A DNA stretch of 58,645 bases from Clostridia bacterium (lineage in GTDB: Bacteria > Bacillota > Clostridia > Oscillospirales > CAG-272). The stretch covers positions 1 to 58,645 of the forward strand of contig JAFTQV010000002.1 of the NCBI GenBank assembly GCA_017462605.1, in the 5' to 3' direction. Position numbers and translations under genes: made by a program. The notes below the pieces were generated by a model. The model made no database searches and had not been told where the DNA came from. It saw only the letters and a list, made by a program, of their open reading frames with translations. Shown piece by piece: positions 4,770 to 58,482 of the stretch; the stretch's first letter is position 1; each line of letters starts with the position of its first letter.

Positions 4770-5486
4770 ATGAAGAAAATTTTCACTGTCTTTACGAAAA
4801 CCGAGCTTGCCATAATGTCAGGCTCGATACTGACTATTCTGATCGCGTTTTTCGCCTTCGGCGGCGAGGGGTATCTTTCGCTTATTGCCTCACTTATAGG
4901 AGCAGTCTCGCTCATGTTCTGCGCTAAGGGAAATCCCTTGGGTCAGGTGCTTATAATTATATTCAGTATCCTTTACGGCATAATATCATTTGAGGTAGGA
5001 TATTACGGCGAAATGATAACATATGTTGGCATGTCTGCGCCAATGGCGGTCTTTGCTCTTATCGCCTGGATAAAGAATCCTGCGGAAAAAGGGAAGTCCG
5101 AGGTCAAGGCTTACCGCTTGACTTTCCGCGATGCTTTGGTAATGATCTTACTTACTCTTGCAGTCACCTTCGCCTTTTATTTTATTCTTAAATTTTTTGG
5201 AACGTCCAATCTGCCCGCAAGCACTCTTTCTGTCACAACGAGCTTTGCCGCAGTCTATCTCACTTATAAAAGAAGCCCCTTTTACGCCCTTGCATACGCC
5301 TTAAACGACGTTGTGCTTATCGCAATGTGGATCTTCGCTATGCGAAGCGATTCGTCCTACGTTTCCGTCGTCACCTGCTTTTTGGTATTCCTGCTCAATG
5401 ATCTTTACGGTTTCTTCTCATGGCAGAGAATGCAAAAAAGGCAGGAAGAGAAGAGCAGAAGGGAGAACGCGGATCAAAGTCTGTGA
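4770..5486 (+). CDS. pnuC: PnuC-type nicotinamide riboside (vitamin) transporter
   Basis: The 238-residue integral membrane protein has seven to eight hydrophobic segments and the PnuC-family pattern: GNPLGQVLIIIFSILYG, an EVGYYGEM segment, then an aromatic LNDLYGFFSW near the C-terminus. PnuC proteins move nicotinamide riboside by facilitated diffusion, trapped by phosphorylation inside. Relatives move thiamine, riboflavin or deoxynucleosides, so substrate is not certain. Regulation is probably through the structured leader at 4581-4769. Its stop codon overlaps the end of the convergent AraC gene by 13 bp. Confidence 0.88.
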   Translation: MKKIFTVFTKTELAIMSGSILTILIAFFAFGGEGYLSLIASLIGAVSLMFCAKGNPLGQVLIIIFSILYGIISFEVGYYGEMITYVGMSAPMAVFALIAWIKNPAEKGKSEVKAYRLTFRDALVMILLTLAVTFAFYFILKFFGTSNLPASTLSVTTSFAAVYLTYKRSPFYALAYALNDVVLIAMWIFAMRSDSSYVSVVTCFLVFLLNDLYGFFSWQRMQKRQEEKSRRENADQSL

Positions 5487-6295
5487 TCCCTCTTTCTTCT
5501 AAATTCGCCCGGCGTCAATCCTGTCATGGAAGCGAAAACGCGGTGGAAGCTGCGCTCTCCCGAAAATCCGCACTCAACGGCAATATCGGCTACCGTCCTT
5601 TCAGTATGTAAAAGATATAGCTTTGCGTGGTCCGCCCTTATGGAGTTTAAGAGGTATCTGAAATTCATTCCTCTTATCTCACCGAGGCATCTCGATACGT
5701 ATTCGGGATTATAATTCAGCTCCTTTGCAACGCCGACAAGAGAGACCTTTTCCCTAAAATGCTCTCTCATATACGATATGACCTTAAGCGCAGTTGAAAG
5801 AGCGCCGCTCTTCTTTAATACCTTAAATTCGGGAACTGTGCGCGCGTATTCCTCGTGAACGGCGTAAAGGGCAGCCTTGATCATACGGAACTGCTCCCTG
5901 TCGCAGGTGATAAGCTCTTCTTTAGTATCTATCATTCTGCTTTTCAAAAGATTCAGAACCTCATTTGAGGGCGTGAATACGGAGCGACCGGTATTGTAGT
6001 AATATTCCGTGTCCTGCGAGAAGTCTGAAATAAAATCATTTGAAAAAACAGCAAGCCATATATGAGAATAGCTTGGCGTATAAAATCCGTGAAGAGCGAA
6101 GGGCGGCACTATTACGACGTCTCCCGCTCTTGCAGTCTCCTCTTTGCCGTCTTTGCTTACCGTTATTTCCCCGTCAAGAACGAGAAGAAGCTCGGAAAAC
6201 TGATGCAAATGGGAGCGCATCTCATACTTCCCCTTTTTGACAGAAGTGCGGAGAGTTCCCGTAAAGCCAAAATTTGATGATTGTACCGTTATCAT
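5474..6295 (-). CDS. AraC-family regulator 1, cupin plus HTH
   Basis: The 273-residue protein has an N-terminal cupin-like sensor (about 20-110, with MRSHLHQFSELLLVLDGEIT) and a C-terminal AraC double helix-turn-helix (about 170-268, ending with AVECGFSGERSFHRVF and TGLTPGEFRRK). It should bind DNA as a dimer and respond to a small ligand, often a sugar. It lies head to head with the 2808-aa exoprotein gene, and the 225-bp gap carries two TTGTCA direct repeats 21 bp apart. Regulator 2 (49227-50030) is a clear paralogue with the same arrangement beside the second giant gene. Control of the divergent giant gene is inference from this context. Confidence 0.93.
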   Translation of the reverse strand: MITVQSSNFGFTGTLRTSVKKGKYEMRSHLHQFSELLLVLDGEITVSKDGKEETARAGDVVIVPPFALHGFYTPSYSHIWLAVFSNDFISDFSQDTEYYYNTGRSVFTPSNEVLNLLKSRMIDTKEELITCDREQFRMIKAALYAVHEEYARTVPEFKVLKKSGALSTALKVISYMREHFREKVSLVGVAKELNYNPEYVSRCLGEIRGMNFRYLLNSIRADHAKLYLLHTERTVADIAVECGFSGERSFHRVFASMTGLTPGEFRRKRDHRL

Positions 6296-6423
6296 TTTTG
6301 ATTTCCTTGTTAAAAACTATAATTACATCAATGTAATTTTATCATTTATTATCCAATATGTCAATACAGAAGAAGAGAAAAGTCTTCCGTATTTTTTTTA
6401 TTTTTTCTTAAAAACATCAAGTT

Positions 6424-6450
6424 TTGTCAGTTTATAATCAGTAATTGTCA
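6424..6450. promoter_or_regulatory. Candidate AraC operator 1 (direct repeats)
   Basis: TTTTGTCAGT and ATTGTCATA contain TTGTCA at 6424-6429 and 6445-6450, same orientation, 21 bp apart, or two helical turns. The same pair with the same spacing occurs at 50066-50092 before the paralogous giant gene. The second repeat lies where a -35 box would be: TATAAT occurs 15 bp after it (6466-6471) and again at 6474-6479, so an activator bound here could contact RNA polymerase. The rest of 6296-6520 is AT-rich, with no gene. Confidence 0.65.
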
Positions 6451-6520
6451 TAGTAAAGTTATTATTATAATGATATAATAGAATTAGCAAATAATTTTCT
6501 TTTAAAGAAAGGAAAAATTT

Positions 6521-9500
6521 ATGAAAAAGAACTTCAACAAAAAGCTGATCGCATCGCTTCTTTGCGTGCTGACGGTGATAGTCTCCGTTCTTACGGTGAC
6601 GGTATTCGCCGATACGCCGACCGATGCGATGACTGCGATCAAAGCCGAATTTGAGGCAGAAGGGAAAAATCTCCTCGTTGGCTCAAAGGTATCTGTGAGC
6701 GACGATGGATACATAGGAATTCCCGTTGAACTTACTACCTATTACGATTTTGCGACTCACGGAGCAGCAAAAGCGGGATACAACGGAACGCCTCTTATGA
6801 TCTACGTTGTCAACACCGGTGTGGAACGCATCGGCGCGAAGACTGACGTTGAGATCATCAAGGGTATGCTTGATGATGGCTACATAGTCGCCGTTCTTGA
6901 CTATAAGAACCACGCGAAGGCTGTCTCCCCCGATCTTGACTGGTCGACTCAGACGATCAGAAAGAATATAATGAACTCAAAGTATTTTAAAGACACATCT
7001 AAGGTTCCCTCGGGTACTTACTATTCAAACTATATCGTTCCCGCAGGATATGACGTTTCTATAAGAAACGTTTTCTGGGAAGCGGATAAGCACGGCGCGG
7101 ACGGTACTCTTGAAAAGATAGTTGAAAACTGGAACACCGACCTTCGCGGCTGGTTTTCTTCAAGCGTAAGAAGCAAGAAAACGTACGTTTACTGGCTTGA
7201 TAACGAGAATAAGCCGAAAAGCACTCAGAAGGGCTTTGACGGCACTGATCCCGTATGGTATGCCGATGCCGAAGGTAAGACCGTGGCTTCTCCCGATACC
7301 GACTCGGACAACGACGGCGTTCCGGACGGAAAATACGTTCACATTCAGCATACGCTCGCAGTCGATATAACCGACTGCGTTGGCAAGGACGGAACTCCGA
7401 TAGATCTTAACCTTTATATGGATATCGTCTATCCCACGACCAAAGAGGGAAGCGAGATAGATCCCGTTCCGATCGCGGTTCTTGCAAACTCCTCGGAATA
7501 TCTTTCGACCGCAAGCACAGGCTCCGGTCTCCGCCCTCAGCACAACGGCTTCCTTTTCAACGGCTATGCGGGCGCATCATTTGATTATCTCTATCAGCCC
7601 ATGGCGCAGTCTGATTACTACGGATATTACGACGGCAGAACAGACCAAGGCGCGCTCACAGGCGACCGTATGAACTACGGACTCCACCTTTATAACGACA
7701 AGAGAATAAATACCGCGGCGATGAGATATCTCAGATACCTCGCCCTTACCGACCCCGATACGTATAGCTTTGATATCACCTCGATAGGCGTATTCGGCAA
7801 CTCCAAGGGCGGTTGGTTCTCCTACCTTGGCGAAGAGATCGTCAAAAATCCTGCAACTCCCACCGAGGGTCAGACTCTTGCTGAGGCTATTGACGCTAAG
7901 ATCAACTCCTATACCTCGAAGAGAATGTTTGAGGGCAGCAACGGAGAGACGAGATACGAAATGGGCAGGGAGACCTACACCAAGCGCGGTGTGACTATCG
8001 ACGGCGGCGAGCTTCAGCCCTGGCTTACTTATACGAAGGACGGCGTTGAGTACGAGATCCCCTCATACGCAAGCTGGACCTACGCATCCAACGGCTCTCA
8101 GCCCGAAGACGTTTCAAAAGGTCACTCCCCTATGTTCATAGCTCTCCACCTTCAGGACGATTTCTCGACCTATGCAAACGCATTTGCAGAGGTTGCGGGC
8201 AATCTTAAGGACGTCCCCTCTTACTACGTTGTGGTCGACCTTGGGCACACCTTTGCATACGGACCCGATTGGTATCACGGATTTGATACGTATCAGGCAA
8301 TGTTTGACTTCGCGGGCTATTATCTTAAGGGCGATGCCGTTAAGGTAGTTTATATCACGCCTATCAATGCAACGGGTAACGTTTCTACAACGAAGGGTAT
8401 TACCTTAAAATTCTCGGGCGCAGTTCCCGCGAGCGAGATCGAAAAGGTAAAGATAACCGCTAAGAGCGGCGCTGCTGCTACGGGTAGCTGGGACTACGTT
8501 GCAGGTATGACCGAATGGACCTTCAGCCCCAACGCTCTTATTCCCGGCGAGGAATATACTATAACCGTCCCCGCGGATATCAAGGGTGACAACAATAAGG
8601 CTATGGGCGCGGCTTACACCGCTACCTTCTATACCGAAGCAGAGACTGTTGCCGACGTTACTACCGTCACCACCGAAAAGGGCACGTACCTCACCTTCAC
8701 AGCTCCCTCTCTTGCATCCGCATCAGATGCGCGCGTAAGATTCAAGGTTGACAACGACGCGGCTAATATCGCGGGACTTTACGCGGTAAGCAACTTCGAT
8801 GCATCGAACCCCGATGCGGCAACCGTCGGCGCTAAGATAGGCACCGTTAATCTTAAGGGCGGCGGATACTACGAGATCGATGCATCGTCGGTTATTTCCG
8901 CAGCATCGGGCAGCGAGCTTACCCTCTTGTTCAAGGCAGAGAAGGCTGAGTCTGAAAACACAAAAACCGCATCTCTTTCGAGCATTTCTCTCGGAGCGTA
9001 TGCAAGAAAGAACGATGAGACTACCGCTCCCGACGGAGTCACCGCGGCTATCGGTCTTTACGTTAATGAAAATATAAGACTGAACGGACAGAATCAGTAC
9101 CCCTACGACGTATTTTACAATAACGGAACAACTCTCTTCACCGCAAGCAACCTCTTCACCTCATCCGCGATCACCACTGCAGACTACGGAAGAAAGTTCA
9201 CGGTATCAATGAGAGTATACGATACGGTTTCAAGACTCATACAGCTCTCGCTCACCCCTGCTTACACGGCAACGAACGGCGTCCACGACTTTGACGTTGA
9301 GCGCCACAACTTCAAGACTGTTGCAGGCGAGTGGACCACACTTACATTTGACTACGTCGTTTACGAGCCGAGCTACGGAGATAAGGCTCTCGCGAAGAAG
9401 GCTCTGACCGTCCTTCTCGGAACAACGGGCGCTTCCGAAAAGCCTGTCTATATCGAAAGCATCAAGGTCACCGAGACGGTTACCGATATGTCGGTCAGCT

Positions 9501-12500
9501 CGGCATCTATCGTTCTCGGCGCAAGAGACGATGCTTACAAGGCGGATACCGAGGGCAAGCCCTTCACTATCGGAGCAACAGGCTATGACAGCTTTGCAAA
9601 GGCTCTTTCCGCAGCGAAGAGCGGCAATACCGTCAAGCTTAATAAGAACTACACCATGACCTCGAGCGATAACTTCTCGAACTGGACAGCTCTTGGAAAT
9701 ATCACAGTCGATCTGAACGGATATAAGCTTTACGCAAACGGCGGTTACTCACCCATCGTGGCAAAGGCTTCATCCAAAACAGTCGCTACCACCAATATCA
9801 CCTTCAAGAACGGAAGCGTTTATCTTTACAATAAGCCTCTCGTTTCTTACGGCGGCTCGAGCGCGGCAGGCGACGGAAAGGTATTCAATATCACCTTCGA
9901 TACCGTCAACGTCCTTAACGCCCCCGGATCAAGACTTTATAACGTTATTTCCGATACCGCGATCGATGCAAGCTCGGGCGCAGACGTCAACATCGCCTTC
10001 CTTAATTCAAATATCGATTTCAGAGTCGGAATGAATACAAGGCACGTTATGACCGTCTTCCCGATAGGAGAGGGAGCTCTTGATCTTTCCTACACAATAA
10101 CGGGCGGAAGCGTTTATCTTGACACTACCGCAAATCTCGACATCTTTACGTCTATAAAGAAGCTTGAGCTTCTTAAGACCTCAGGCGGCGCTTATACTAC
10201 CTTCTCAATTCCCGCGTCTGTGAACGTTGCGGATCTCGCGATCATGAGAGATGACGGAATCGCTACCTTCAAGAATAGCGGTGAAGCGAGCGGAATAGTT
10301 ACTTACACCACAGATAAGAGTCCTCTTTCGACCAAGTACGGAATTATCCCCGAGGCATACGCCGATGCCCAGGCTTATCCCTTCGTTCTCTTTGACGAGA
10401 AGGGAACCTTCAAGGGCGCGTATAACTGCTGGATAGGAAACAGCGACAACGGCGCGGGCGGCGTTTTCGGAGCGGCTAAGAATTACGTTGTCAACCCCTG
10501 GGACGGCGCATCCTACGGATATAACCCCAAGGAAGCATTCATCGTTATGCGCCGCAACTATACCTTTGACGCAACGAAGGACGTAAGATTCGTCAACCTT
10601 GCTCAGCTTCAGGGTACTATCAACGTGGATCTCGGCGGATTTACTCTTTCCGCAGGCAGCGTTGCATATCCTATAATCCCCGCATTCTCCAAGGGCTTCA
10701 GCGGCTCGGCGAGCGGTATTCACGTATTCCCCTCAACGATCGTCGTCAACAACGGTACTCTTCTTAACTACAAGAGCGGTACGGTTGCGATGAGCACCTG
10801 GGATTCAGCGCCTGATTTCACTATTGCAAATAAGCACTTCAACTTCATCTTCAACGGCGTTACCTTCGGATTTACCAACCCCAGAGATTGCCAGGGTCTC
10901 GTTGCTCACTCATGGGGAGAGACCGGCACTCCCGGCGCGGCAGCTCCCTTCAACTTCACTTACAACGACTGTACCTTTGATCTCACGACCGCGAGCGGAA
11001 ATTCAACGATCTTTTCTCTCAGCGGCGTTGCAAACAACTATATCAAGCTCACCGCAGTCGTCAACGGCGGTAAGATCCTTGCGACCGATCCCTCGAAGGT
11101 TACCGTTATAGACGGTACTACATCTGAGGCTACCTACGGCTCATCCGTTTCCTTCGGCAAGGGCTCGGACGGAAAGATGACCTATTACTCCGTTCCGAAC
11201 ACCGCGTCCGTCAGCATCGGAAGCTACAACGGCACAGACGGAAAGATCCTCGGCTTCGTTGAGAGCGGAGCAGAGGGAAGCAATAAGATCTATACACTTG
11301 TTGATAACCCGCTTGTCACAAAATACGGCACTATCTCTTCAACCTACGAGGATGCCGAGAAATACCCCTTCGCGGTATTCACAGATACGGGAACGTTCCG
11401 AGGCGGATTCTCACTCTTATCAACTGCGGCTCACAACGCAAAGGGCTATTCAAACGCAAGCAATAAAACCGCGATAATCTTTTTGAGAAGAGATTATACG
11501 ACGGTAGTCAACAACTATAACGACTCCCCTCAAGGCGACGCATATGATAACTGGGCGCAGGTAAAGGGCACTGTGGTCATAGATCTTAACGATCATACCA
11601 TTACTCAGGGAGACAGCGCATCCGGTATATTCGCGATAGTCAACTCCAAGGGTATGGACGGAACGACATTCCCCTCAAACTACGTTGTTAAAAACGGTAC
11701 TCTTCTTGCAGGCTCAAATCCCATTCTCAGAGCAAGAATGTGGACTACAAATCAGTCGGACGGCACAACGCCCGTTGATATATCCAAGAAGCTCTTTACC
11801 TGGGATTTCAACAATGTGACCTTCGGATTCAAGTCAGGCGCAACAACAAGCAATCTTTTGCTTGGCTACGAGAGCCCTCAGGTAACGAGCAACCCCAAGG
11901 CAGCGCCCTTCTTCTTCAACTACAACGACTGTACGTTTGATATGACGAACGCTCCTTCGGGCGCGAAGCTCTTCAATGCAAACGCGGCTGATTCAACCAT
12001 GATCACCTCTACGGTGACGGTAACGGGCGGCGAGATCAAAAACGCAGCCTCGCTCAGCCTTGCTCAGCTTTACTCACTTAATTCGACTAATACCAACGGC
12101 TCATCCGTCACCTTCAAGAAGAACGCGGACGGCGACTACACGAAGATCTACGTTACCGAAGGCGGAGCTGCTCCCTCGGGAGACGTTCCTACCGAAGACG
12201 GCGCTCTTATCTACGTCAAGACCGCAACAGACAGCGGATACGTGCTTTACACTCTTACAAATCTTACCACAAAGTACGGCGCGATCCCCGCTGACAAGGC
12301 TTCCATTCAGGATTATCCCTTCATTCTTTTCAAGAAGGTTGGAGAAACTTATACGTATTACGGTGCATACAAGCTTCTCTACGGAGATCAGGATTATACC
12401 AACGGCGTAATAGGTCAGGCAGTCGGACTCCTTAAGAACAACTCCTACAACGGAGAATCCTGGGCAGACGGCGCATGCGATGCTATCATACTTCTTCGCC

Positions 12501-14947
12501 GCGACTATACTTTGAGCTCGAATGAACGTTTTGACAATCTCGCTCACCTCAAAGGAAACATCACAATAGATCTTGGCGGAAATTCACTTTATGAAAGCAC
12601 AACAAAAACCGGCACGGCAGCAACCAGAAAAGCTTCGCTCTTCCATTCGATATCCAAGCGATTTGCCACAGATGTCGGAAATATGGTATTCCCCACTAAT
12701 TTCACTGTTGAAAACGGTTCGATCTACGTATACGGCTCAAGCGTACTTCATATGGAGTCCTGGCAGTGCTTAGATGAATACGGAATAATATCAGATAAGA
12801 AGTTCACTTGGAATTTCAATAACGTCACCTTCGGCTTGCAAAAAGGCGCTACCGCGCAGTCTCTGGTGACAGGATCGTTCGTTAAATATTCTTCAAACGT
12901 AGCAGGAAAGGGCGCAACGCCTTTTGGAATTACACTTAATAACTGTGTATTTGATCTCAAAACAGTTGCTCCCACCTCAGAGTTCACAATTTTAGGCAAC
13001 AACTTCGAACCCGATTGCTACATGACTCTTGATATATCTGTAAACGGAGGAAAGGTCCTCGCTAATTCGCTTACGAATATCCGTATCTACGATCTTAACA
13101 GTGAGGTTGGCTCGATCTGCTTTAACGCCTTAGGCGATGAAGCTCTGAAGCTTGAAATAAACAGCGGAGCAGCTTATCCTTCATATGATCCTTGCTTCTA
13201 TGACAAGGACGGTAAGGAATATACCTTCCTCTACTCTAAAGCAGAGAGCGGCTCAGACGTTTACGAGCTTGCGCTTTCCATAGCTACCAAGTACGGTAAT
13301 ATCCCCGCAAGATACGCATCGGAAGAAACCTATCCTCTCGTTGTATTCCTTGACGGAAAGTTTGTTTTTGCAACCGATAAGATCGGTGTTGATGCCAAGG
13401 ACAGCGCATTCCACAGAGCGAAGACAAACGGCTCGGTCATCCTTCTTCGCCGCAATTACACCTTCACAGGACCTAAGTACCAGAACTTAAGCCAGACGAA
13501 CGGCGCTATAACCTTCGACCTTGGCGGCTTCACTATCTCCTGCGAGCAGACGGGTGATTATCCTCTCTTCTTTGCGCAGAAGAAGACTACGTACGATTCG
13601 ACTGTCACCGTCATCAACGGAACTATCCTTACCGCTAAGAACCCGATTGTAACCTTCTCTGCATGGGCGGGCTCAAGCGGCTCTTACACAGGCGGAAAGC
13701 AGTTCAATATCAACTTTGAAGACGTTACGCTCGGCGCGGTTGCAGGCACGAAGCCTGCGGTCCTCATAGCGTCCGCAAGCGAAAACCTCAGCGAGCCGAA
13801 GACTCCCTGTGCGCTTACCCTTACCGACTGCACCATAGATCTTACGGGTCTTACGGATACGACGGTATTTAATATCAAGGATGCAAGCAGCATCATCTGC
13901 GTTGCTCTTACAGTAAACGGCGGAAAGATCATAGGAGACGACGTTTCAGCTATAAGCTTCGCTCTCACCGCAGGCGAAAGCACAGCTCTCTTCGATACCG
14001 CGATTAAGCTTTACGCAAAGGCAGGCACAAACGCTATATTCACTACCGCAGAGGGCAGATACGCATTCAATCCCCAAGGCACCGAGGGTGAATACACCGT
14101 ATACGAGCTTATCCCCGAGGCATACGCGACCTTCGTTCCCAAGACGAGCGTTACACTCTGGTCTGATTTCGTTTACAATATCTATCTTCCCGTAAGAGAC
14201 GGTATAACAGCTATCAACGTTGGCTCTGAGAGCTACACGGCAAGCGAGCTGCCCACCGAGACAATCAGCGGCACAAGCTACTACAAGATAGCATACGCTA
14301 TCAACGTTATGAGGGCTGCCGAAAGCTTTGAGCTTAAGGTAACTCTTGGAGATAGAAGCGCTTCCTGGACTCTCGGCATCCCGAGCTACGCTAAGACCGT
14401 TATTGACGGCGAGGCTTACTCTGCCGAGGAAAAGGCTCTTATGAAGGATATGCTCTCATACATCAGAGAGGCTTACTCCTACTTTAATATCACCTCTGAC
14501 GCCATCGCTGATATCAACGCGATAATTCCCGAGAGCTACGACGAGGAAAGTCTTCCCGATATGACTAAGACCCAGAAGACGCCCGAAGGATCCGGATTCA
14601 AGAACGTTACTCTTAATCTCGGAGAGACTCCCGCATACAGATTCTACTATGAGGGTGAAACCGCTCCTGCTTATACCTTCACGGTAGGCGGTGTTGAGAT
14701 CGCACCCGAAAGCGGTACAGACTCCAACGGTAAGTATCTTGAGGTTAAGGTTTACGCGTATATGATGCTCCTTGACGTAAGCTTTGGCGCGGAAGGGGAA
14801 GAACCCTTTGTATACAACGTTTATTCCTACTACAACTGGGCAAGCGCGAATGGCGAGACCAAAGCGGCAGAGCTTGTTGAAAGGCTTGTTAAATACTGCG
14901 AATCAGCAAATGCTTACAGAAATACAATGATACCCGAAACAAATTAA
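6521..14947 (+). CDS. Giant secreted hydrolase-like/beta-helix protein 1
   Basis: A 2808-residue exported protein; a signal peptide ends at about Ala30 (VFA/D) and an AAAGGA ribosome binding site precedes the ATG. Residues 31-605 look like an alpha/beta-hydrolase: nucleophile elbow GNSKGG (426-431, Ser428), a candidate acid Asp546 and His576 in LGHTFAYG. Residues 607-707 resemble a bacterial Ig-like (SbsA/Big_5) domain. Residues 710-828 and 840-987 resemble beta-sandwich carbohydrate-binding domains. From about 1017 come beta-helix-like turns (IDLGG-TL, NGT-L, NNVTFGF, NDCTFDL, NGGKI). Four full repeats open with TKYG at 1271, 1600, 1917 and 2256. Residues 2530-2808 form a C-terminal domain shared with the other two giants. 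No LPXTG, SLH or transmembrane anchor is visible. Esterase activity and substrate are inferred. Confidence 0.85.
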   Translation: MKKNFNKKLIASLLCVLTVIVSVLTVTVFADTPTDAMTAIKAEFEAEGKNLLVGSKVSVSDDGYIGIPVELTTYYDFATHGAAKAGYNGTPLMIYVVNTGVERIGAKTDVEIIKGMLDDGYIVAVLDYKNHAKAVSPDLDWSTQTIRKNIMNSKYFKDTSKVPSGTYYSNYIVPAGYDVSIRNVFWEADKHGADGTLEKIVENWNTDLRGWFSSSVRSKKTYVYWLDNENKPKSTQKGFDGTDPVWYADAEGKTVASPDTDSDNDGVPDGKYVHIQHTLAVDITDCVGKDGTPIDLNLYMDIVYPTTKEGSEIDPVPIAVLANSSEYLSTASTGSGLRPQHNGFLFNGYAGASFDYLYQPMAQSDYYGYYDGRTDQGALTGDRMNYGLHLYNDKRINTAAMRYLRYLALTDPDTYSFDITSIGVFGNSKGGWFSYLGEEIVKNPATPTEGQTLAEAIDAKINSYTSKRMFEGSNGETRYEMGRETYTKRGVTIDGGELQPWLTYTKDGVEYEIPSYASWTYASNGSQPEDVSKGHSPMFIALHLQDDFSTYANAFAEVAGNLKDVPSYYVVVDLGHTFAYGPDWYHGFDTYQAMFDFAGYYLKGDAVKVVYITPINATGNVSTTKGITLKFSGAVPASEIEKVKITAKSGAAATGSWDYVAGMTEWTFSPNALIPGEEYTITVPADIKGDNNKAMGAAYTATFYTEAETVADVTTVTTEKGTYLTFTAPSLASASDARVRFKVDNDAANIAGLYAVSNFDASNPDAATVGAKIGTVNLKGGGYYEIDASSVISAASGSELTLLFKAEKAESENTKTASLSSISLGAYARKNDETTAPDGVTAAIGLYVNENIRLNGQNQYPYDVFYNNGTTLFTASNLFTSSAITTADYGRKFTVSMRVYDTVSRLIQLSLTPAYTATNGVHDFDVERHNFKTVAGEWTTLTFDYVVYEPSYGDKALAKKALTVLLGTTGASEKPVYIESIKVTETVTDMSVSSASIVLGARDDAYKADTEGKPFTIGATGYDSFAKALSAAKSGNTVKLNKNYTMTSSDNFSNWTALGNITVDLNGYKLYANGGYSPIVAKASSKTVATTNITFKNGSVYLYNKPLVSYGGSSAAGDGKVFNITFDTVNVLNAPGSRLYNVISDTAIDASSGADVNIAFLNSNIDFRVGMNTRHVMTVFPIGEGALDLSYTITGGSVYLDTTANLDIFTSIKKLELLKTSGGAYTTFSIPASVNVADLAIMRDDGIATFKNSGEASGIVTYTTDKSPLSTKYGIIPEAYADAQAYPFVLFDEKGTFKGAYNCWIGNSDNGAGGVFGAAKNYVVNPWDGASYGYNPKEAFIVMRRNYTFDATKDVRFVNLAQLQGTINVDLGGFTLSAGSVAYPIIPAFSKGFSGSASGIHVFPSTIVVNNGTLLNYKSGTVAMSTWDSAPDFTIANKHFNFIFNGVTFGFTNPRDCQGLVAHSWGETGTPGAAAPFNFTYNDCTFDLTTASGNSTIFSLSGVANNYIKLTAVVNGGKILATDPSKVTVIDGTTSEATYGSSVSFGKGSDGKMTYYSVPNTASVSIGSYNGTDGKILGFVESGAEGSNKIYTLVDNPLVTKYGTISSTYEDAEKYPFAVFTDTGTFRGGFSLLSTAAHNAKGYSNASNKTAIIFLRRDYTTVVNNYNDSPQGDAYDNWAQVKGTVVIDLNDHTITQGDSASGIFAIVNSKGMDGTTFPSNYVVKNGTLLAGSNPILRARMWTTNQSDGTTPVDISKKLFTWDFNNVTFGFKSGATTSNLLLGYESPQVTSNPKAAPFFFNYNDCTFDMTNAPSGAKLFNANAADSTMITSTVTVTGGEIKNAASLSLAQLYSLNSTNTNGSSVTFKKNADGDYTKIYVTEGGAAPSGDVPTEDGALIYVKTATDSGYVLYTLTNLTTKYGAIPADKASIQDYPFILFKKVGETYTYYGAYKLLYGDQDYTNGVIGQAVGLLKNNSYNGESWADGACDAIILLRRDYTLSSNERFDNLAHLKGNITIDLGGNSLYESTTKTGTAATRKASLFHSISKRFATDVGNMVFPTNFTVENGSIYVYGSSVLHMESWQCLDEYGIISDKKFTWNFNNVTFGLQKGATAQSLVTGSFVKYSSNVAGKGATPFGITLNNCVFDLKTVAPTSEFTILGNNFEPDCYMTLDISVNGGKVLANSLTNIRIYDLNSEVGSICFNALGDEALKLEINSGAAYPSYDPCFYDKDGKEYTFLYSKAESGSDVYELALSIATKYGNIPARYASEETYPLVVFLDGKFVFATDKIGVDAKDSAFHRAKTNGSVILLRRNYTFTGPKYQNLSQTNGAITFDLGGFTISCEQTGDYPLFFAQKKTTYDSTVTVINGTILTAKNPIVTFSAWAGSSGSYTGGKQFNINFEDVTLGAVAGTKPAVLIASASENLSEPKTPCALTLTDCTIDLTGLTDTTVFNIKDASSIICVALTVNGGKIIGDDVSAISFALTAGESTALFDTAIKLYAKAGTNAIFTTAEGRYAFNPQGTEGEYTVYELIPEAYATFVPKTSVTLWSDFVYNIYLPVRDGITAINVGSESYTASELPTETISGTSYYKIAYAINVMRAAESFELKVTLGDRSASWTLGIPSYAKTVIDGEAYSAEEKALMKDMLSYIREAYSYFNITSDAIADINAIIPESYDEESLPDMTKTQKTPEGSGFKNVTLNLGETPAYRFYYEGETAPAYTFTVGGVEIAPESGTDSNGKYLEVKVYAYMMLLDVSFGAEGEEPFVYNVYSYYNWASANGETKAAELVERLVKYCESANAYRNTMIPETN
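10331..14110 (+). repeat. Four TKYG/YPF modules coding repeats in giant 1
   Basis: Module starts at nt 10331, 11318, 12269 and 13286, so the periods are 329, 317 and 339 codons. Each opens with TKYG, five to twelve residues, then YPF/L-x-x-F. An LRR-x-Y strand, IDLGG/DLNDH-TL, an NGTLL turn, a W-F-NNVTFGF turn, an NDCTFDL turn and VNGGKI follow. The copies are diverged at DNA level, so they are old duplications. Confidence 0.8.
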
Positions 14948-14970
14948 GTTATGACGAAGAAAGGACTGTT

Positions 14971-15321: not shown

Positions 15322-15322
15322 A

Positions 15323-47616: not shown

Positions 47617-48960
47617 ATGTCAGAAACAGCCGTAATTTTAATAACTCTCTCGATAGCTCTGCTCTCGGGACTCTTACTTTCAAGAGTAATGAAAAAGCTC
47701 CAGCTCCCTGCGGTCACAGCGTATCTCATCGCAGGAGTTCTTATAGGACCTTATCTTCTCGGTTCTTTAGGCTTTGGATTCAATGCGGATAGCAATGCGC
47801 CCGAAAAATATTCTATCCTTTGCGATCTCGCTCTTGGATTTATTGCCTTTGCGATAGGAAATGAATTCAGAGTAAGCCAGCTTAAGAAGATAGGCAAGCA
47901 GGCAACCGTTATAGGTATTTTGCAGGCTGTGGTCACAACGGTGGTGACGGATGCGGTTCTTATAGCCCTCTCCTTTATTCTTCCCGACGGTATGCTTCCC
48001 ATTCCTGCCGCAATAATTCTCGGCGCTGTCGCAACCGCAACCGCGCCCGCCGCGACCCTCATGGTCGTGCGCCAGTATAAAGCAAAGGGACCTGTTACGG
48101 ATATTCTTCTTCCCGTCGTTGCGCTTGACGATGCGGTAGGTCTCGTTGTATTTGCTATCTCATTCGGCGTTGCGGATGCTATCAATACGGGAACGGTAGA
48201 CGCCGTATCTATGATAGTCAATCCTCTGATCGAGGTAATTGTCTCGCTTGTACTCGGAGCGGCTATGGGCTTTTTGTTTAACCTTTGCGAAAGATTATTC
48301 CATTCAAGATCGAAGAGAATGGCAGTCTCGGTCACCTTCGTTATGCTCACGGTTGCGATATCCTCGCTTAAGTTTGATAACCTTCCCGGCGGAATACATA
48401 TACATTTCTCCTCGCTTCTTGCATGCATGATGCTCGGAACGATATTCTGCAATATCTGCGATTTCTCAGAGGAGCTTATGGCGAGAGCGGATAGATGGAC
48501 GGCGCCTCTTCTTATACTCTTCTTCGTTATCAGCGGAGCAGAGCTTAAGCTTGACGTATTCCTTAACTGGGTATTCGTCGTTATCGGCGTTGTATATATT
48601 ATCGCAAGATCCTTCGGTAAGATGTTTGGCGCGACGGTTAGCGCTAAGCTTATGAAGGCAGACGATAATGTTGTTAAGTATCTCGGTATAACCCTTCTGC
48701 CTCAAGCAGGAGTAGCTCTCGGAATGGCAAGCCAGGCATTGCTCTTTGGCGGCGAGGTCGGAACGCTGGTCCAGAGCATAACTCTTTTCGCGGTCCTCAT
48801 CTATGAGCTTGTCGGTCCCTTCCTCACCAAGGTAGCTCTGACCAAGGCGGGCGATATACAGTCTGAGGGCAAGGTCAGCGCAAGAGAGGAAGCAAGAATA
48901 CAGATAGAAGAGAAAAAGCATAAGTCTCATTCGGAAAAGAGACATTTCAGATTAAGATAA
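47617..48960 (+). CDS. CPA2-family cation/proton antiporter
   Basis: The 447-residue membrane protein has about 12 hydrophobic segments of the Kef/NapA-type Na+/H+ exchanger fold (QLPAVTAYLIAGVLIGPYLLG, FAIGNEFRVSQLKKIGK, VALDDAVGLVVFAI). The LDDAVG segment carries the acidic pair used for ion exchange. The tail (about 415-447) is short, polar and basic, without TrkA-type nucleotide-binding domains. Whether it exchanges Na+ or K+ cannot be told. Confidence 0.9.
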   Translation: MSETAVILITLSIALLSGLLLSRVMKKLQLPAVTAYLIAGVLIGPYLLGSLGFGFNADSNAPEKYSILCDLALGFIAFAIGNEFRVSQLKKIGKQATVIGILQAVVTTVVTDAVLIALSFILPDGMLPIPAAIILGAVATATAPAATLMVVRQYKAKGPVTDILLPVVALDDAVGLVVFAISFGVADAINTGTVDAVSMIVNPLIEVIVSLVLGAAMGFLFNLCERLFHSRSKRMAVSVTFVMLTVAISSLKFDNLPGGIHIHFSSLLACMMLGTIFCNICDFSEELMARADRWTAPLLILFFVISGAELKLDVFLNWVFVVIGVVYIIARSFGKMFGATVSAKLMKADDNVVKYLGITLLPQAGVALGMASQALLFGGEVGTLVQSITLFAVLIYELVGPFLTKVALTKAGDIQSEGKVSAREEARIQIEEKKHKSHSEKRHFRLR

Positions 48961-48968
48961 AAATAAAA

Positions 48969-49211
48969 TTATTTGTCACTTAAAAGCCATTCGGGAGAAA
49001 CGCCGAGAATTTCGGATAACACCAAAAGCTCGTAATCCGCAACGAATCGCGTGCCTATCTCGATCCTGCTAACACTATCCCTCTCTATATTTATTCCTTC
49101 TGTCTGAAGCTTCGCGGCAAGATTTTCCTGCGATAACTTTAATCTTTTTCTCGCTTCTTTTATTTTCTTTCCGCAAATGTTTTTCTTACCGTTATAATCG
49201 TATATTTTCAT
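48969..49211 (-). CDS. XRE-family transcriptional regulator
   Basis: An 80-residue single-domain Cro/C1-type helix-turn-helix protein (IKEARKRLKLSQENLAAKLQ, RDSVSRIEIGTRFVADYEL, ILGVSPEWLL). It lies 15 bp downstream of AraC regulator 2 on the same strand and is probably co-transcribed with it. The first giant locus has no equivalent. Its target is unknown. Confidence 0.85.
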   Translation of the reverse strand: MKIYDYNGKKNICGKKIKEARKRLKLSQENLAAKLQTEGINIERDSVSRIEIGTRFVADYELLVLSEILGVSPEWLLSDK

Positions 49212-49226
49212 GTTTTTCTCGTTTTC

Positions 49227-50030
49227 TTAAATATAGTCGCCTTTTCTGTATTCTCCGGGGGTCAAGCCTGTCTCGGCGAGAAAGGCTCTGTGAAAGCTTC
49301 TTTCGCCCGAAAAGCCGCATTCGAGCGCAATGTCTATCATTTTAAAATCGGTTTTCTTTAAAAGAGACATAGCAAAGTCGATACGGAAGGAGTTAAGCAG
49401 CTGCCTGAAATTCATATTGTAAAGCGAGCTTATACACCTTGAAACGTATGCGGGATGATATCCGAGAGCCGCTCCTACCGATTCTCTTGAAATGTCCTCT
49501 CTTGCATGGGAATTAATATATAAAAGGATAGAGGTGAGCGCATCGCCTCGGTATCTCTTTTCGCTCGGCTCGGCAGAAGAGAGAAATTCTTCCATAATAG
49601 GGAAGAGAAGCGCCTTATAGAATCTGTTCGTTCTTTTTTCTTGTGAAACGAAAAGCTCCTTGTTATCGGGGAGCTTCTTTTTTATGTATTCAAAAAGCCC
49701 GTCCGAGAGCTTGAATTTAAAGTTTCTCCAGCCTGCAAGCAGCTCCGAGTCGGAGACAAGAGCATTGATATAGCTATTGGAGAAGACGCATATCCAGATC
49801 TTCACCCGATCAGCACTTTTGTATGAATGCGCCTTGAAGGGAGATATAAATATAGCCTCGCCGGGTCTTACGGTGGTTTTCTCTTTGTCAACCGTCACCG
49901 TTATTTCATTCTCTAAAACTATAAGAAGCTCGTTGTATTGATGAAGGTGAGAGTCAAAGCAATACTTCTCGTTCTTTATTCCGCATTTTAAATTCTCACC
50001 CGAGCCGAAATTAGTCGTTTGTATTCTCAT
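49227..50030 (-). CDS. AraC-family regulator 2, cupin plus HTH
   Basis: The 267-residue protein parallels regulator 1 along its length: cupin sensor with DSHLHQYNELLIVLENEITV, a helical linker, and the AraC double helix-turn-helix with ALECGFSGERSFHRAF and TGLTPGEYRKG near the end. The motif LLNSFRIDFA corresponds to LLNSIRADHA of regulator 1. It is divergent from the second giant gene. Its own promoter (50075-50103) overlaps the TTGTCA repeats, so autoregulation is likely. Confidence 0.93.
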   Translation of the reverse strand: MRIQTTNFGSGENLKCGIKNEKYCFDSHLHQYNELLIVLENEITVTVDKEKTTVRPGEAIFISPFKAHSYKSADRVKIWICVFSNSYINALVSDSELLAGWRNFKFKLSDGLFEYIKKKLPDNKELFVSQEKRTNRFYKALLFPIMEEFLSSAEPSEKRYRGDALTSILLYINSHAREDISRESVGAALGYHPAYVSRCISSLYNMNFRQLLNSFRIDFAMSLLKKTDFKMIDIALECGFSGERSFHRAFLAETGLTPGEYRKGDYI

Positions 50031-50065
50031 TTTTTCTTCCTCATCAAAAACTAAAAGGTTACATT

Positions 50066-50092
50066 TTGTCAGTAATTATAACACTTTTGTCA
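50066..50092. promoter_or_regulatory. Candidate AraC operator 2 (direct repeats)
   Basis: TTTTGTCAGT and CTTTTGTCATA contain TTGTCA at 50066-50071 and 50087-50092, same orientation, 21 bp apart. They reproduce the pair and spacing at 6424-6450. The second repeat doubles as the -35 of the giant promoter, and the pair covers the -10 and spacer of the divergent araC promoter. Confidence 0.7.
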
Positions 50093-50103
50093 TACGAAGT
50101 CAA
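50075..50103 (-). promoter_or_regulatory. Sigma-A promoter of AraC regulator 2
   Basis: On the minus strand, TTGACT (50098-50103) and TATAAT (50075-50080) are 17 bp apart, directing transcription into the regulator gene. Confidence 0.7.
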
Positions 50104-50114
50104 TTACGTATGAT
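50087..50114 (+). promoter_or_regulatory. Promoter of giant 2
   Basis: TTGTCA (50087-50092) and TATGAT (50109-50114) are 16 bp apart. The -35 hexamer is the second half of the candidate operator, as expected for activation by a protein touching RNA polymerase. Confidence 0.55.
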
Positions 50115-50205
50115 AAAATAAATATGAAGAAAGAAACAATATTTCTTTTTGCTTGTTAATATTGCACAAAAATATTTGGTAAAAATGCATTTTCAGGAGG
50201 AAATT

Positions 50206-56200: not shown

Positions 56201-58482
56201 TAGCTCTCGGACATTCCGGCACTACCGCCGATGACGATACAAAGGAGCTTGAGTTCATCTTTAAAGACGTTGATTTCGCTTTCGGAACTGGAGCAGAGGT
56301 CCTCATCAGAGAATGGAAGGACCACACGGGAGACGGACTTAACGTAAGCTATCTCTTTGACGAATGCCGAATTGATTTTGCAAATGCAAAGAGCGGAGCT
56401 ATTGCTTTCGATTTCCTTGATACCAATAAAAAGACTCTAACGGCTGCCACCTTCAAGGGCGGACTTATCAAGGCGGATGATCTCAATAGCTACTCGGTAG
56501 TTAAAAACAATTCCGAAGAAAACGTCACATTCATCAAGAATGATAGCGGAAGCTACACAAAGGCAGAGCTTCCTCTCAGCGCGCCCGATCCCACAGCGAC
56601 CTTCAAGAGTGAAAGCGGAGAGACTCTTTCCTTCGGCAAGGAGAGCATAGGCGCACAAAGCAAGATCTACGTGCTTGGAGAAAACGTTTTCATAAAGTAC
56701 GGAAGCGTACCCTTCGCTTATACGAACGCCGAGTTCTATCCCTTCCTCGTTTTCGATAAAAACGGCGCATTCCTCGGAGCGGACGATACCTTCCTTGATA
56801 CGGTAGCGCCTACCGACAATGAAGGCGCTATCCATATAGCGAAGAGTCATATGCAATCGAACTCCTGGAACGGAACGGACTTCGGATCGGACGAAAGATC
56901 GGCAACGATCCTTATGAGAGCTGACTATTCCATGGCAAGCACCGAGACTTACAATAACTTAGCTCAGATCATAGGAACCGCCACCGTTGATCTTGACGGA
57001 CACACCCTTACCGCTTATAAGACGAGGACTCTTTTTGGCACCTCGATCAAGCCTTGGGGCGAAAGAGGTATATATCCGACAACGATCACGGTCAAGGACG
57101 GAACCGTTGAGATATTTGATGCTCCCCTTATCAAGGTTGAAACCTGGACCGGAAGCGATTCAAGACCCGATGATTATGTGAAGAATAAGAAATTTACGTA
57201 TAATTTCGAGGGCGTATCGGTTAAGGCTCTCGGAACGTCGGATAAGATCGTTTCGCAGTCCAACGTCGGAACGGGAACTCCGAATGCTGTCGGAAACCTC
57301 TACGTAGGATTTACCGATTCCACGATAGACGTAAGCGAGTCAAAGGCGGCGAGCCTTACCGTGATGAATTCGGGCAACGGACTTACTCACGTCACCGTGA
57401 CGTACAGAGGCGGATCTATCATTGCCAAAGAGGGCGTCACTATATTTGACGGATCGGCGGACGCTGAGGGATCTCTCAGCTTCGAGAGAGGTAAGGACGG
57501 AAAGCTCACCTCGCTCAGAATGATCTCGGGCAAAGCTCCTCTCGATGAGTATTCGGGTAGCCTCGGCAAGCTCGTATTCGTCAGCGAGGGTGTGAATACT
57601 TACAGACTTACGCCTAAGGCTGCAGCCGAATTCGGCGTAAAGAAGAGCATAACTCTTTCCTCGGATCTTATTCTTAACGTTTACGTTGAGGCGATCGACG
57701 AGCTTCTTTCCTTCAAGATTGCGGGAAAGATTTACGAAAAGAATGATTTTGCTTCTCTTACCACAGAGGTGATAGAGGGCGAGACCTATTATAAGGTTTC
57801 CGTTTCCCTTGCTTCGTACAATGCGCTCGATGACGTTGCGCTTTCTGCCAAGATCTCTCTTGCGGATGGAAGCGAGCTTGAAAGCGTGCGCACGCTTAAC
57901 GCCGTAAATTATGCGAAGAGCGTGATAGCGGGAGAGGGAAGCGAGAAGGAGAAGACTCTCGCTCTTGATATGCTTTCATATATCAGAGCGGCTTACGCCT
58001 ACTTCGGCTCTGCGAACACGGCAAAACTTGCCGAGATAGACGAGATCCTCGGAGATGAGTACGACGATACGAGCGCACCCGATCTTACGGCAGATGCCAA
58101 GACTCCTGCGGCAGGCTCAGGGCTCTCGGGCGCTACGCTTAAGCTCGGCGCGACAGCTGACTTCATCTTCATTCTTGATAAGGGCTGCTCGGCGAGCGAC
58201 TTCACCTTCAGGATAGGCGATACCGCGCTTAAGGTCACTGACTGCGAGACCTACGTTATAGTTGAAGCTCCCTTAGGCTCTCTTACAGAGACTGTAAGCT
58301 TTGAGGGCAAGAATAAGGACGGCGAGACCGTATCGGGCGAATATAACGTTATGTCCTACTACGCGTGGGCGGCAGCCGAGGGCAATGAAAAATCGTCTCC
58401 CGAGCTTATAAAGCTTCTCGAAAGACTTATAAAATATTCCGAGAGCGCGAAGGCGTTCTCGGAAGAGACGGCAAACGGCTGA
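50206..58482 (+). CDS. Giant secreted hydrolase-like/beta-helix protein 2
   Basis: A 2758-residue exported paralogue of giant 1. The start 50206 has an AGGAGG ribosome binding site and opens a normal signal peptide (MRSGKKRKLK, hydrophobic core, cleavage near AFA/S). An upstream ATG at 50149 would spoil it. Residues 40-590 form the alpha/beta-hydrolase-like head: GNSKGG at 400-405 (Ser402), candidate acid Asp520 and His552 in PIGHTLTSG. An Ig-like SbsA/Big_5 domain and two beta-sandwich (CBM-like) domains follow to about 990. A beta-helix start lies near 995 (INIDLNGYTVY), then four repeats open at about 1258, 1555, 1859 and 2163 (LYG/DYG/TFG/KYG ... YPF-x-x-F). From about 2470 is the shared C-terminal domain. 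No LPXTG, SLH or transmembrane anchor. Hydrolase function and glycan substrate are inference. Confidence 0.86.
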   Translation: MRSGKKRKLKIVALICSLACLLSTGVIAAFASSAIETVGEMAKDVDGGDGIATAFSSYKVQDTVRASSSLVGDVQYTVYHNKTSAIKTGYEGTPIVVYTVNHPTVQRVGTDSNKTIITSMLDKGYVVIVLDFLNNSDITTTDIANYTQQFRQDIVNKKVITYSGFPEGNPRETFIAPSGCNVLLQQVFWSIDKHSAEGTLEKIVENWNTDFRTTKGGKLVKWVHSDGTRKKVLDGATWHNADGSANTSGGQYTYVKYTVAETITDCVDPDGSFIDMDLYINVVYPTSPNTEVPVMSLANSSGYPTTSVTSADLRPHSNDFLYNGYANVVFDYMWEPMSRNASWGYYDGSQGNTKDHMNYGLMMYNDKLVNTAAMRYLRNLSLSDKTGEYNFDLDAFGVYGNSKGGWFSYLGEAVLQKELISSTEGMTKDALETAIDLKLASLVPDRYYNGHDGTTRYQANAGKIEKDGFTVRAGEKQPWLTYDGKEIISGCQLTNACNGSQEEDISEGHVPIFISCNMTDTYNAAYGYSINIYNICRMLDIPLLHFEVPIGHTLTSGKDMNYNVDTYENYFKYVGYFLKDLPIDVAYVSPMDKAGEVAVTDKIEIHFTGIVESSEIAKITVTSENSSVSGSWESSFGGTVWTFTPEALSGDTVYTLAIPSDFAGNNGVAMGKAYTLSFETEKDSAKYLGASGEYYTFTAPKEFTFGNTYVFRFLVTNDAANKAMLYAVDGAGDTEGELLGSVNLRGAGTYEIDVTDYIAAKADQEVTLMLKAENAKGEREVLNSEDGSAIYNLPSKNKNSKVTFENGVTIGEETAVSVYVSTPTPKPNADNPLSVYYDNPTHLFTYSGIMGGFKTTPENYGRRFTVEFDVYDTVERVMRVQLNTMTKRVDYGTIDYDHVFFNVKTKANGWTHVEFTYNVYEPDYGFASDGNSQSLAVYLSPTGYQAAGEEKLAYINGLKVTEITTEMTVGNAFLAEKEDGTGISYKAPQNAVKPLAVYNGDTKVGEYSTLAEAFAAYTSGYTLKLQSDYTLTDSGIYSGMGSFAEINIDLNGYTVYSMNTTGAFLWLKSTTKSATVINVSGGAIRLGRCALISYADSTLEGAGKAWGVKLDGVYIGLTENSFATELLSTSDLPSGAETDVNVEFNNCIFDIPDEKRAKDAAVLFTAPASKSLGLTYDVTGGEIRLSSQRWITVIDNAMIVEFHKDASDNYTVLKMPESITTSVSGSYLTKDGYAKFDKAASSEYITTYTLACDENSTLYGVITDDYLDDEAYPFLVFKNGVLISGEATFAAAITKANGYLKGTDLADEKVEILLRRDFVNTGEASFGSTNGTILIDLGGHTLSRSSTLVNAVVNSSTVFTYPTSVIFTNGRLDVMKDKGVIGVTHCLIAASSTKTFNVTFDKVTFGFGAQSPETITKSEGIFWSMWQNGYDASTVTNLTLKDCTLDLVTNAPANGATLFKLTNTEKGQVNFKMLGGEIISSGAEYTFATTDSKDSVLVGLGSGGKLPTLKVKSGGAVIDYAFRTESGDYTNFTTDGSTEGGYDLYELTVNQNVTDYGMIPGTYENAESYPFVLFMDGQFVGAYGTWKAATQGAGTALDGKSDKTAYLLMRRDYNNTGDSADGGSINKVNGTLVVDLGAHTFTRGANIFDMYYYKSNTAPVNMIIKNGSLRTLGKPIFANQINADTESAVKSWNVTVTGVTLGFAEGAESTGETFVTTWTNPVKDADKVITTPCTMRSHTTLVFKDCTFDLNTNRPTTKPTLFDLSDNNGYDLVKTDIVIEGGEIICDSLKNVTIATKNEGTDSVTFTKSGGKYATLTATTTAKDASHYTGAFDTPEGTMYYVEIADDGVNSTYVLDKMTFGELSAPITAKYLSALDYPFFVFSDSSFSSAKDYWRNAIDAAKELVNDDSEKNVTANIVLRRDYDVSKTNTAGKSDAGSNFNNAKGKISIDLNGKTINNVDTYFIDVYFEYKNASYLGYKSTVEIKGGTLKNSRATFPMIALGHSGTTADDDTKELEFIFKDVDFAFGTGAEVLIREWKDHTGDGLNVSYLFDECRIDFANAKSGAIAFDFLDTNKKTLTAATFKGGLIKADDLNSYSVVKNNSEENVTFIKNDSGSYTKAELPLSAPDPTATFKSESGETLSFGKESIGAQSKIYVLGENVFIKYGSVPFAYTNAEFYPFLVFDKNGAFLGADDTFLDTVAPTDNEGAIHIAKSHMQSNSWNGTDFGSDERSATILMRADYSMASTETYNNLAQIIGTATVDLDGHTLTAYKTRTLFGTSIKPWGERGIYPTTITVKDGTVEIFDAPLIKVETWTGSDSRPDDYVKNKKFTYNFEGVSVKALGTSDKIVSQSNVGTGTPNAVGNLYVGFTDSTIDVSESKAASLTVMNSGNGLTHVTVTYRGGSIIAKEGVTIFDGSADAEGSLSFERGKDGKLTSLRMISGKAPLDEYSGSLGKLVFVSEGVNTYRLTPKAAAEFGVKKSITLSSDLILNVYVEAIDELLSFKIAGKIYEKNDFASLTTEVIEGETYYKVSVSLASYNALDDVALSAKISLADGSELESVRTLNAVNYAKSVIAGEGSEKEKTLALDMLSYIRAAYAYFGSANTAKLAEIDEILGDEYDDTSAPDLTADAKTPAAGSGLSGATLKLGATADFIFILDKGCSASDFTFRIGDTALKVTDCETYVIVEAPLGSLTETVSFEGKNKDGETVSGEYNVMSYYAWAAAEGNEKSSPELIKLLERLIKYSESAKAFSEETANG
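53977..57610 (+). repeat. Four YG/YPF module coding repeats in giant 2
   Basis: Modules start at nt 53977, 54868, 55780 and 56692, with periods of 297, 304 and 304 codons, slightly shorter than in giant 1. Each has a YPFLVF-like opening, an LRRD strand, IDLGGHTL, a turn with NGTL or NGRL, VTFGFG and NDCTLDL-like strands, and a GGEI turn. Confidence 0.8.

Follow-up and report, generated by a model that had tools for sequence, protein, structure and literature searches.

Two gene pairs of unusual composition lie on either side of a chromosomal origin region, each formed by an AraC-type regulator and a divergently transcribed exported protein of some 2.8 thousand residues, and they raise the question of what such pairs are for, how many a genome contains and whether their two members are inherited together. 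We addressed this for a window (the whole stretch of DNA analysed, 58,645 nucleotides) from a ruminant-gut Clostridia MAG of 1.71 Mb in 94 contigs that is 60% complete; nearly all genomes used were MAGs.

At both loci the layout given in the original prediction was recovered (Table 1). An AraC/cupin regulator is divergent from an exported giant, the regulators are paralogous (39% identity over 264 columns, E 3e-69), as are the giants (33% identity over 2104 columns in the best aligned segment, E 0), the domain order of the giants matches, and TTGTCA-N15-TTGTCA occurs exactly at both loci. Two differences between the loci had also been pointed out and are present: a 52-aa ORF follows giant 1, with no such ORF seen in the 163 nt remaining after giant 2, and locus 2 has an extra regulator-like ORF. 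For the latter, a similar ORF start is found in L066 (3257-3541). The start of giant 2 is preceded by an AGGAGG site (by eye), and a TTG at 50149 lies upstream of this likely start. Between the loci lie dnaA, dnaN, recF, gyrB, gyrA, parA and parB, the recF label resting on a RecF/RecN/SMC domain and on gene position. The window also holds a third giant, missed earlier, whose clear similarity to giant 1 lies in the C-terminal (CT) domain, and a gene for RlaP (RNA repair pathway DNA polymerase beta family) at 1852-2601 on the minus strand.

Table 1. Positions of the AraC-giant loci and associated features in the window
Feature	Position	Strand	Basis or remark
AraC/cupin regulator 1	5474..6295	-	Pfam HTH_18 75.1 bits (cut-off 33.6), Cupin_2 45.4 (cut-off 27.2)
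Operator 1, two TTGTCA half-sites 21 bp apart	6424..6450	+	exact pattern
Giant exoenzyme 1, 2808 aa	6521..14947	+	N-terminal hydrophobic segment by eye
Alpha/beta-hydrolase (esterase-like) domain, giant 1	6611..8335	+	about residues 31-605
Big_5 Ig-like domain, giant 1	8336..8635	+	residues 606-705; Pfam 41.8 bits
Beta-helix-like stalk, giant 1	9548..14092	+	repeats of ~330 aa; approximate limits
CT domain, giant 1	14093..14929	+	HMM of own copies; alignment A3, n=23
Microprotein gene, 52 aa	14971..15129	+	23 nt past giant 1 stop; E 4.1e-19, itself a row of the scoring alignment
Third giant, 1890 aa	15647..21319	-	divergent CT domain 15731-16564; without adjoining AraC
80-aa ORF	48969..49211	-	HTH-like by eye; downstream of regulator 2
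AraC/cupin regulator 2	49227..50030	-	HTH_18 67.4 bits, Cupin_2 36.9, both over Pfam cut-offs
Operator 2, identical half-sites and spacing	50066..50092	+	exact pattern
Giant exoenzyme 2, 2758 aa	50206..58482	+	counted from ATG 50206
CT domain, giant 2	57595..58464	+	HMM
Hairpin and U-run, terminator-like, after giant 2	58488..58533	+	fold z -4.16

The view of two copies flanking an origin region was right in that dnaA lies between the loci, and it undercounted the family. Giant 1 as a query against its own genome gave 69 matching segments on 17 contigs, and 27 giants were counted (ORFs of 1260-2808 aa), which by hand sum of their lengths amount to ~154 kb, or ~9% of the MAG. In this count export-signal-like starts were judged by eye where a start was present, several giants are cut by contig ends, and c38 is entered as one giant though it lies in two frameshifted pieces; the giant counts are lower bounds because the main genome is 60% complete. 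Fourteen of the 30 AraC genes are divergent from a giant (binomial tail 4e-11 at a generous per-gene rate of 5%), one more stands in tandem behind a divergent AraC gene (C14), and another precedes, in the same direction, a large ORF that is truncated where the contig ends (C4). These counts of giants and of divergent pairs, from a genome that is incomplete, support the earlier suggestion of a regulated family of extracellular enzymes. A phosphoesterase-type giant in L048 (3652-9954) has a frameshift near its N-terminus, an assembly error or a pseudogene.

The arrangement extends to other species. Relatives with the same hydrolase domain have a divergent AraC gene at 11 of 14 Clostridia loci, mostly from ruminant-gut MAGs (L061 and L069 are without one and L065 is cut); the 12 AraC proteins used from relatives, one of them from a second pair in L071, all match an AraC HTH profile, and HTH_18 is over its cut-off in all four of those checked. 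A recent tandem or segmental duplication of the two window loci was rejected, each being closer to another species than to its own genome (giant 1 to L059/L072 and giant 2 to L067). In other species, AraC-giant pairs occur close to ORFs that resemble dnaA/gyrB (L064) or parA/parB (L067; labels by eye), and the origin region therefore repeatedly hosts giants.

The spread of the CT family is patchy, with 21 of 69 genus genomes positive at E<=1e-15 and at least 10 copies in only seven. Outside the genus, none of 393 other genomes of the order had a CT domain at E<=1e-20 (few candidates scored per genome), and the hydrolase domain was found in 5 of 390 other genomes across the class (two candidates scored per genome). 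AraC gene number was tried as a proxy for giants and was weak (rho 0.37 over 69 genomes, five of the counts being at least 67). Five genomes of the genus (G442, G419, G436, G445 and G446) have from 64 to at least 67 AraC genes, yet 0-3 CT domains at E<=1e-15. In the stretches examined of the CT-poor G442 and G445 no AraC gene lies directly beside a giant, and in G436 an AraC gene adjoins a 2211-aa or 2775-aa ORF in two of four stretches. The patchiness, together with the tandem giants of the own genome (c11a/b, c15a/b and c7a/b), would fit an ordinary expansion, in which CAZyme-like proteins duplicate species by species, the likeness of CT domains reflects recent duplication and the microprotein gene (microgene) is a passenger. 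We consider this account unlikely, for reasons that lie in the CT domain and the microgene and are given with them below.

The exact operator pattern has only three matches in the whole MAG, and the third of them (C39), located on the 3' side of an AraC gene, could have arisen by chance. As a genome-wide regulon the exact operator was rejected: besides the 3 exact sites, 15 sites have at most one mismatch, compared with 5 in the reversed control. The half-sites to which AraC/XylS regulators bind are direct repeats, spaced by about 21 bp, in the promoter they control, and we scored the best 10-mer repeat at 21 or 22 bp in 26 AraC-giant intergenic regions (14 own and 12 of relatives). The mean for the own 14 regions is 8.07 of 10, compared with 7.01 +/- 0.20 (maximum 7.5) for 200 dinucleotide-shuffled sets, and that for all 26 is 8.04, compared with 7.02 +/- 0.16; both means exceed those of every one of the 200 shuffled sets. 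No other pair of spacings gives more than 7.43 (own 14) or 7.54 (all 26). This direct-repeat signal belongs to the set of regions and not to single regions. For c68a (window locus 1), c49, c39 and c14 the top-scoring repeat reaches 7 of 10, close to what shuffling gives on average, and that of c68a and c49 is found at some distance from the marked operator site. Half-sites vary among the pairs (AGTATTTGAT in c38, CTGGCGTAA in c15b and TTTTGTCA in locus 2), as they should if every regulator recognises a site of its own.

Promoter elements were assigned by eye. The araC2 promoter, TTGACT-N17-TATAAT on the minus strand at 50103-50075, encloses the second half-site, and the -10 candidate of giant 2 (TAAAAT, 50114-50119) lies 21 bp downstream of that half-site with no good -35. 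Giant 1 has a -10 candidate TATAAT at 6474-6479, and the araC promoter of locus 1 is less distinct than that of locus 2. One reading of the locus 2 layout is that of an AraC activator which would sit at the -35 position and shut its own promoter.

The proposal that a regulator and its giant move as a unit stands for some clades and fails for others. The groups {c49, L062} and {L063, L066} recur in both the regulator and the hydrolase tree, as do {giant 1, L059, L072}, with c38 and L068 added in the regulator tree, and {c21a, L060, L071}, with c84 added there. Other relationships are in supported conflict: giant 2 and L067 have sister hydrolases (100/100), L070 being close to them, and yet the regulator of L067 forms a pair with that of L070 (100/98) in a group (98/96) that includes, among others, c81a and c39 and excludes regulator 2; the regulator of L068 pairs (100/100) with that of the phosphoesterase giant c38. 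These conflicts led us to reject strict co-inheritance of regulator and giant. Close relatives of a regulator beside unrelated genes had been named as evidence against the pair, and what we found goes part of the way, namely giants of the same family with other enzyme domains. Judging by the trees, regulators and heads have been reshuffled.

The heads are exchangeable between giants. Those of giants 1 and 2 are esterase-like alpha/beta hydrolases, other giants of the genome have GH95, rhamnosidase, SASA or phosphoesterase domains, and enzyme domains are over cut-off in 15 of 18 giants scanned. Pfam gives no hydrolase match in the head region of giants 1 and 2; the alpha/beta-hydrolase fold of the giant 1 head was found by structure comparison. 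It resembles tannase and carbohydrate-esterase hydrolases (6nkf, 6mly, 6xyc and 4j0c), with 18% identity to 6nkf over aligned residues, and differs from these in being part of a giant. Two Planctomycetes proteins of 566-590 aa, L073 (6661-8433) and L074 (9995-11695), have little beyond the hydrolase and Ig-like region, are 24-25% identical and are a lead to a free-standing form of the hydrolase. The giant 1 stalk has repeats, recognized by eye, with the motif TKYG...YPF...RRDY...DLGG...CTFD...GGKI; the last of them was modelled and has beta-helix proteins as its best structural matches (Z to 11.9), the others being assigned from sequence by eye.

Stalks of this kind, and the lectin-like LamG and F5/8 domains that occur among the giants, would also suit adhesins or binding proteins with catalytically dead N-terminal folds. 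We regard this as quite improbable, since residues S428, D546 and H576 (giant 1 numbering), at triad-like positions, are invariant in 18 of 18 aligned hydrolase sequences, including two from Planctomycetes, and GH95 and rhamnosidase domains score strongly.

The CT domain, of about 280 aa, is the part that joins these different proteins. It has no match over cut-off in Pfam or NCBIfam and no PDB relative by sequence. In a comparison of a CT-containing model with the PDB, good coverage was limited to the beta-helix and the initial, Ig-like part (model residues 298-388), and Foldseek returned nothing under E 1e-3. An HMM built from the own giants, which it then scored, detects 26 of the 27, the exception (c15a) being cut by a contig end. 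In three own giants the CT domain is internal, with further sequence after it, which is odd for a terminal anchor. L051 (C29) and L054 (C83) have a reversed order, in which a domain of GDSL-like (below cut-off), S9 or DUF4886 type comes after the internal CT.

The CT domain and the heads differ in their histories. For the 82 best-scoring listed CT domains of nine genomes (L132, a row with a stop, was dropped), the nearest neighbour lies in the same genome in 59 cases, against 14.7 +/- 4.0 (maximum 32) with shuffled labels. For the hydrolase domain this is so in only 1 of 18, though another copy exists in the same genome for 15 of them. Same-genome CT neighbours are less frequent in the own genome (14/23) than in SIG656 (10/11), and such counts are no formal gene-conversion test. 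The giant of L071 illustrates the difference: against c21a of the own genome it is 50-62% identical in the first three 250-residue windows and 24.5% in the CT domain, and its CT domain shares 83.5% identity with that of a paralogue from the same genome as L071 (G418, treated here as SIG656).

The cassette has edges at the DNA level in one genome and, less sharply, in two more. Among four giants of SIG656, the DNA around the stop codon is 55-100% identical in each 75-nt bin between -825 and +150 and 23-59% identical in bins outside, and the edge at +150 is about the end of the microgene. The spacer between giant and microgene is nearly identical in SIG656, so copying is recent there too. In G445 the drops in DNA identity come near -900 and +150 relative to the giant stop, and in G005 there is a sharp fall at +150 (84% to 42%) with a weak upstream edge (44-61% inside and 35-43% outside). 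The CT of G445 is a distant member of the window CT family (profile probability 98.7), and that of G005 has no profile match to it. Within genomes, CT domains show more likeness to each other when a microgene accompanies them (median 59.4, vs 46.2 when none does, p 6e-4), and their rate of same-genome neighbours is 33/42 vs 17/28, which is not significant (p 0.12); labels in this comparison were given by hand, with 6 edge and 6 unlabelled rows set aside. On these patterns, CT and microgene behave as a 3' cassette of about 1 kb that is probably homogenised within genomes. Ordinary expansion would not explain why upstream parts group by orthology across species and CT domains by genome, nor the fall in identity at either end of the cassette in SIG656 and G445, since whole-gene duplication would not give edges; for SIG656 these edges largely refute it. 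The strong purifying selection on the microprotein, described below, is a further argument against a mere passenger gene.

The 52-aa ORF, originally recorded as no more than a difference between the loci, turned out to be the most informative part. It belongs to a family of microproteins of about 42-56 aa encoded just after many giants. An alignment of 17 sequences has invariant Y, P, I, S, G and W and near-invariant K, D, T and a second G, and Pfam and NCBIfam scans of five microproteins gave nothing. The own genome contains 11 strong and 6 weak copies of the microgene; ten of the strong ones follow a giant or CT fragment and one lies at a contig edge. In seven genomes, 50 of 64 strong microgenes follow a CT domain on their own strand at a distance of at most 300 bp; the 14 that lie off a listed CT include one after an internal-CT giant (c29a), two at contig edges and three about 1.3 kb past a CT. 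Among the CT places listed (n=90), 50 have a microgene and 40, with giant 2 among them, have none nearby, and the microprotein is therefore not obligatory. A pattern of giant stop followed by microgene flagged 20 of 45 giants, two of them (c21a and c29c) false by eye, and several of the others end at a contig edge.

The microprotein is under purifying selection. Six copies from G005 have a pN/pS of 0.13 over the whole gene and 0.05 in the C-terminal half, and the C-terminal half of three G418 copies gives 0.07. Each of the six G005 microgenes has a GGAG-type ribosome site. The low pN/pS and the ribosome sites indicate that the microgene is translated and selected and is not a by-product of copying. 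G005 and G445 are genomes of the genus that contain microgenes and have few CT matches or none. All microgenes fetched from G005 (six of 9 found) and from G445 (four of 5 found) start 14-21 nt past the stop of an exported-type protein. These preceding proteins, of 910-2074 aa, have an export-signal-like start (by eye) and are alike within each genome over their last 280 aa (29-71%). The microprotein thus keeps its position and motif even where the CT is not detectably related, as in G005. In seven other genomes, only two of ten microgene-like matches start at most 20 nt from the stop of an exported-type protein of 848 aa or 915 aa (L175 and L179), and the other eight are behind other genes or far from one. 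The generality of this plan is a lead, not a rule.

The microprotein could be a RiPP-like precursor, with a genus-wide N-terminal leader and a genome-specific C-terminal core that would mature to a ligand or signal tied to the giants. Many weaker matches outside CT-rich genomes cover mainly the first ~25-30 of 46 positions and have other C-termini, and seven of eight genomes have one strong stand-alone match to PqqD, a recognition element of RiPP enzymes. Pattern search of the 12-kb stretches around seven PqqD genes nevertheless gave no microgene-like ORF, the window's own 60%-complete genome has no PqqD, and the C-terminal half of the microprotein is acidic-rich and without Cys, so that this reading seems unlikely to us. 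In L185 (5910-6661), L188 (5851-6619) and L190 (near 6000-6660) the PqqD-like gene is followed by a signal-peptidase-like gene (by eye), and an enolase-like ORF (by eye) is near the PqqD-like gene in some genomes.

A small gene directly downstream of a large exported protein also recalls polymorphic toxin-immunity systems (cf. PMC3482391), in which the giant C-terminus would be the toxin and the microgene its immunity gene. Such systems vary the C-terminus; here the CT stays uniform among the many copies of a genome and has matches to Ig-like domains in its first part, and the downstream product is only about 45 aa, all of which make this explanation extremely improbable. The microprotein, which keeps its place even where the CT changes, would either belong to a contact between giant and partner, assist export or be processed to a peptide.

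A single C-terminal module carried by many exported enzymes that differ in their other parts is known from the type IX secretion CTD and from dockerins. The CT resembles both in this respect and differs in that it often has a microgene after it and in a sequence that is genome-specific and homogenised. A uniform shared tail is expected if all giants meet one partner, such as a wall polymer, a receptor or an export path. Sortase (PF04203) was found in none of eight genomes, including the 60% complete own genome, and in 3 of 14 control genomes; sortase anchoring is therefore unlikely.

The AraC-giant pair itself has precedent in AraC-large-protein pairs of cocci and in AraC control of CAZymes in gpPULs. 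EbrB of E. faecium, an AraC-family protein, is encoded upstream of esp and regulates it (PMC3669262), and Spy1337 of S. pyogenes is divergently transcribed from R28 (PMC7098570). In both of these examples of the YSIRK-targeted surface antigen regulators (TIGR04094), an AraC gene likewise stands next to a large repetitive surface protein. The present system differs in that regulator 1 scores 27.2 against the 200-bit cut-off of that model, in that no sortase was found in eight genomes, in the enzyme domains and CT/microgene cassette of the giants, and in the many pairs per genome. The gpPULs of gut Firmicutes similarly have AraC-type local control of carbohydrate-active enzymes (PMC5320581), and their definition requires a transport system in the locus. 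No carbohydrate transporter was seen by Pfam beside the window pairs, the right side of locus 2 being off the contig; their neighbours include an NMN transporter and a Na+/H+ exchanger. The homogenised CT-plus-microgene cassette matched nothing in the models searched or in the literature searched, which mostly comprised sources outside subscription journals and was also queried with motif strings, and no description of this system was found there.

Taken together, we put the probability at roughly one half that each locus is one unit of a genome-wide, effector-induced system of giant exoenzymes with a shared CT/microprotein cassette, odds that rest mainly on SIG656, G445 and the selection data, the G005 edge being weaker. 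In this scheme the cupin-type AraC protein would sense an effector (presumably a sugar, uronate or oligosaccharide), bind the divergent promoter region at two half-sites with a spacing of 21-22 bp and activate the giant promoter, with the near half-site over its -35 position; it probably represses its own promoter, which would enclose that near half-site. The giant would then be exported, carrying an N-terminal hydrolase, in the window giants a tannase/carbohydrate-esterase-like head, on a stalk of Ig and beta-helix-like domains with the CT at its end. Recombination and selection would keep the CT/microprotein cassette alike across the giants of one genome while the enzyme domains follow their own history. 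The simplest reason for this would be that all giants dock to one genome-specific partner or surface, a form of retention or assembly without sortase, and the microprotein may be part of the docking or export step. The data themselves establish the family and its architecture, the operators as a set, the cassette edges, the linkage of CT and microgene and the selection on the microprotein. We infer here the effector, the direction of regulation, the substrate, the docking and the role of the CT/microprotein pair. A more specific version, which we offer tentatively and hold to be somewhat doubtful, is a sortase-free display in which the genome-specific cassette of about 1 kb would act as a 'tail code' on many giants and the microprotein as its constant element, a pilot, ligand or processed peptide that locks giants onto their own cell.

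These results name two protein families that had no models, the CT domain and the ITTS/G.W microprotein, and they provide a searchable genomic signature in which the stop of an exoprotein is followed by a microgene within about 5-30 nt. The many natural AraC-promoter pairs with differing half-sites are material for a study of regulator specificity. The findings point to an undescribed way to equip one cell with many sugar-degrading enzymes. If the proposed scheme is true, dozens of different giant enzymes in a Gram-positive gut lineage share a single address, which recombination and selection would keep uniform while the enzyme domains exchange freely.
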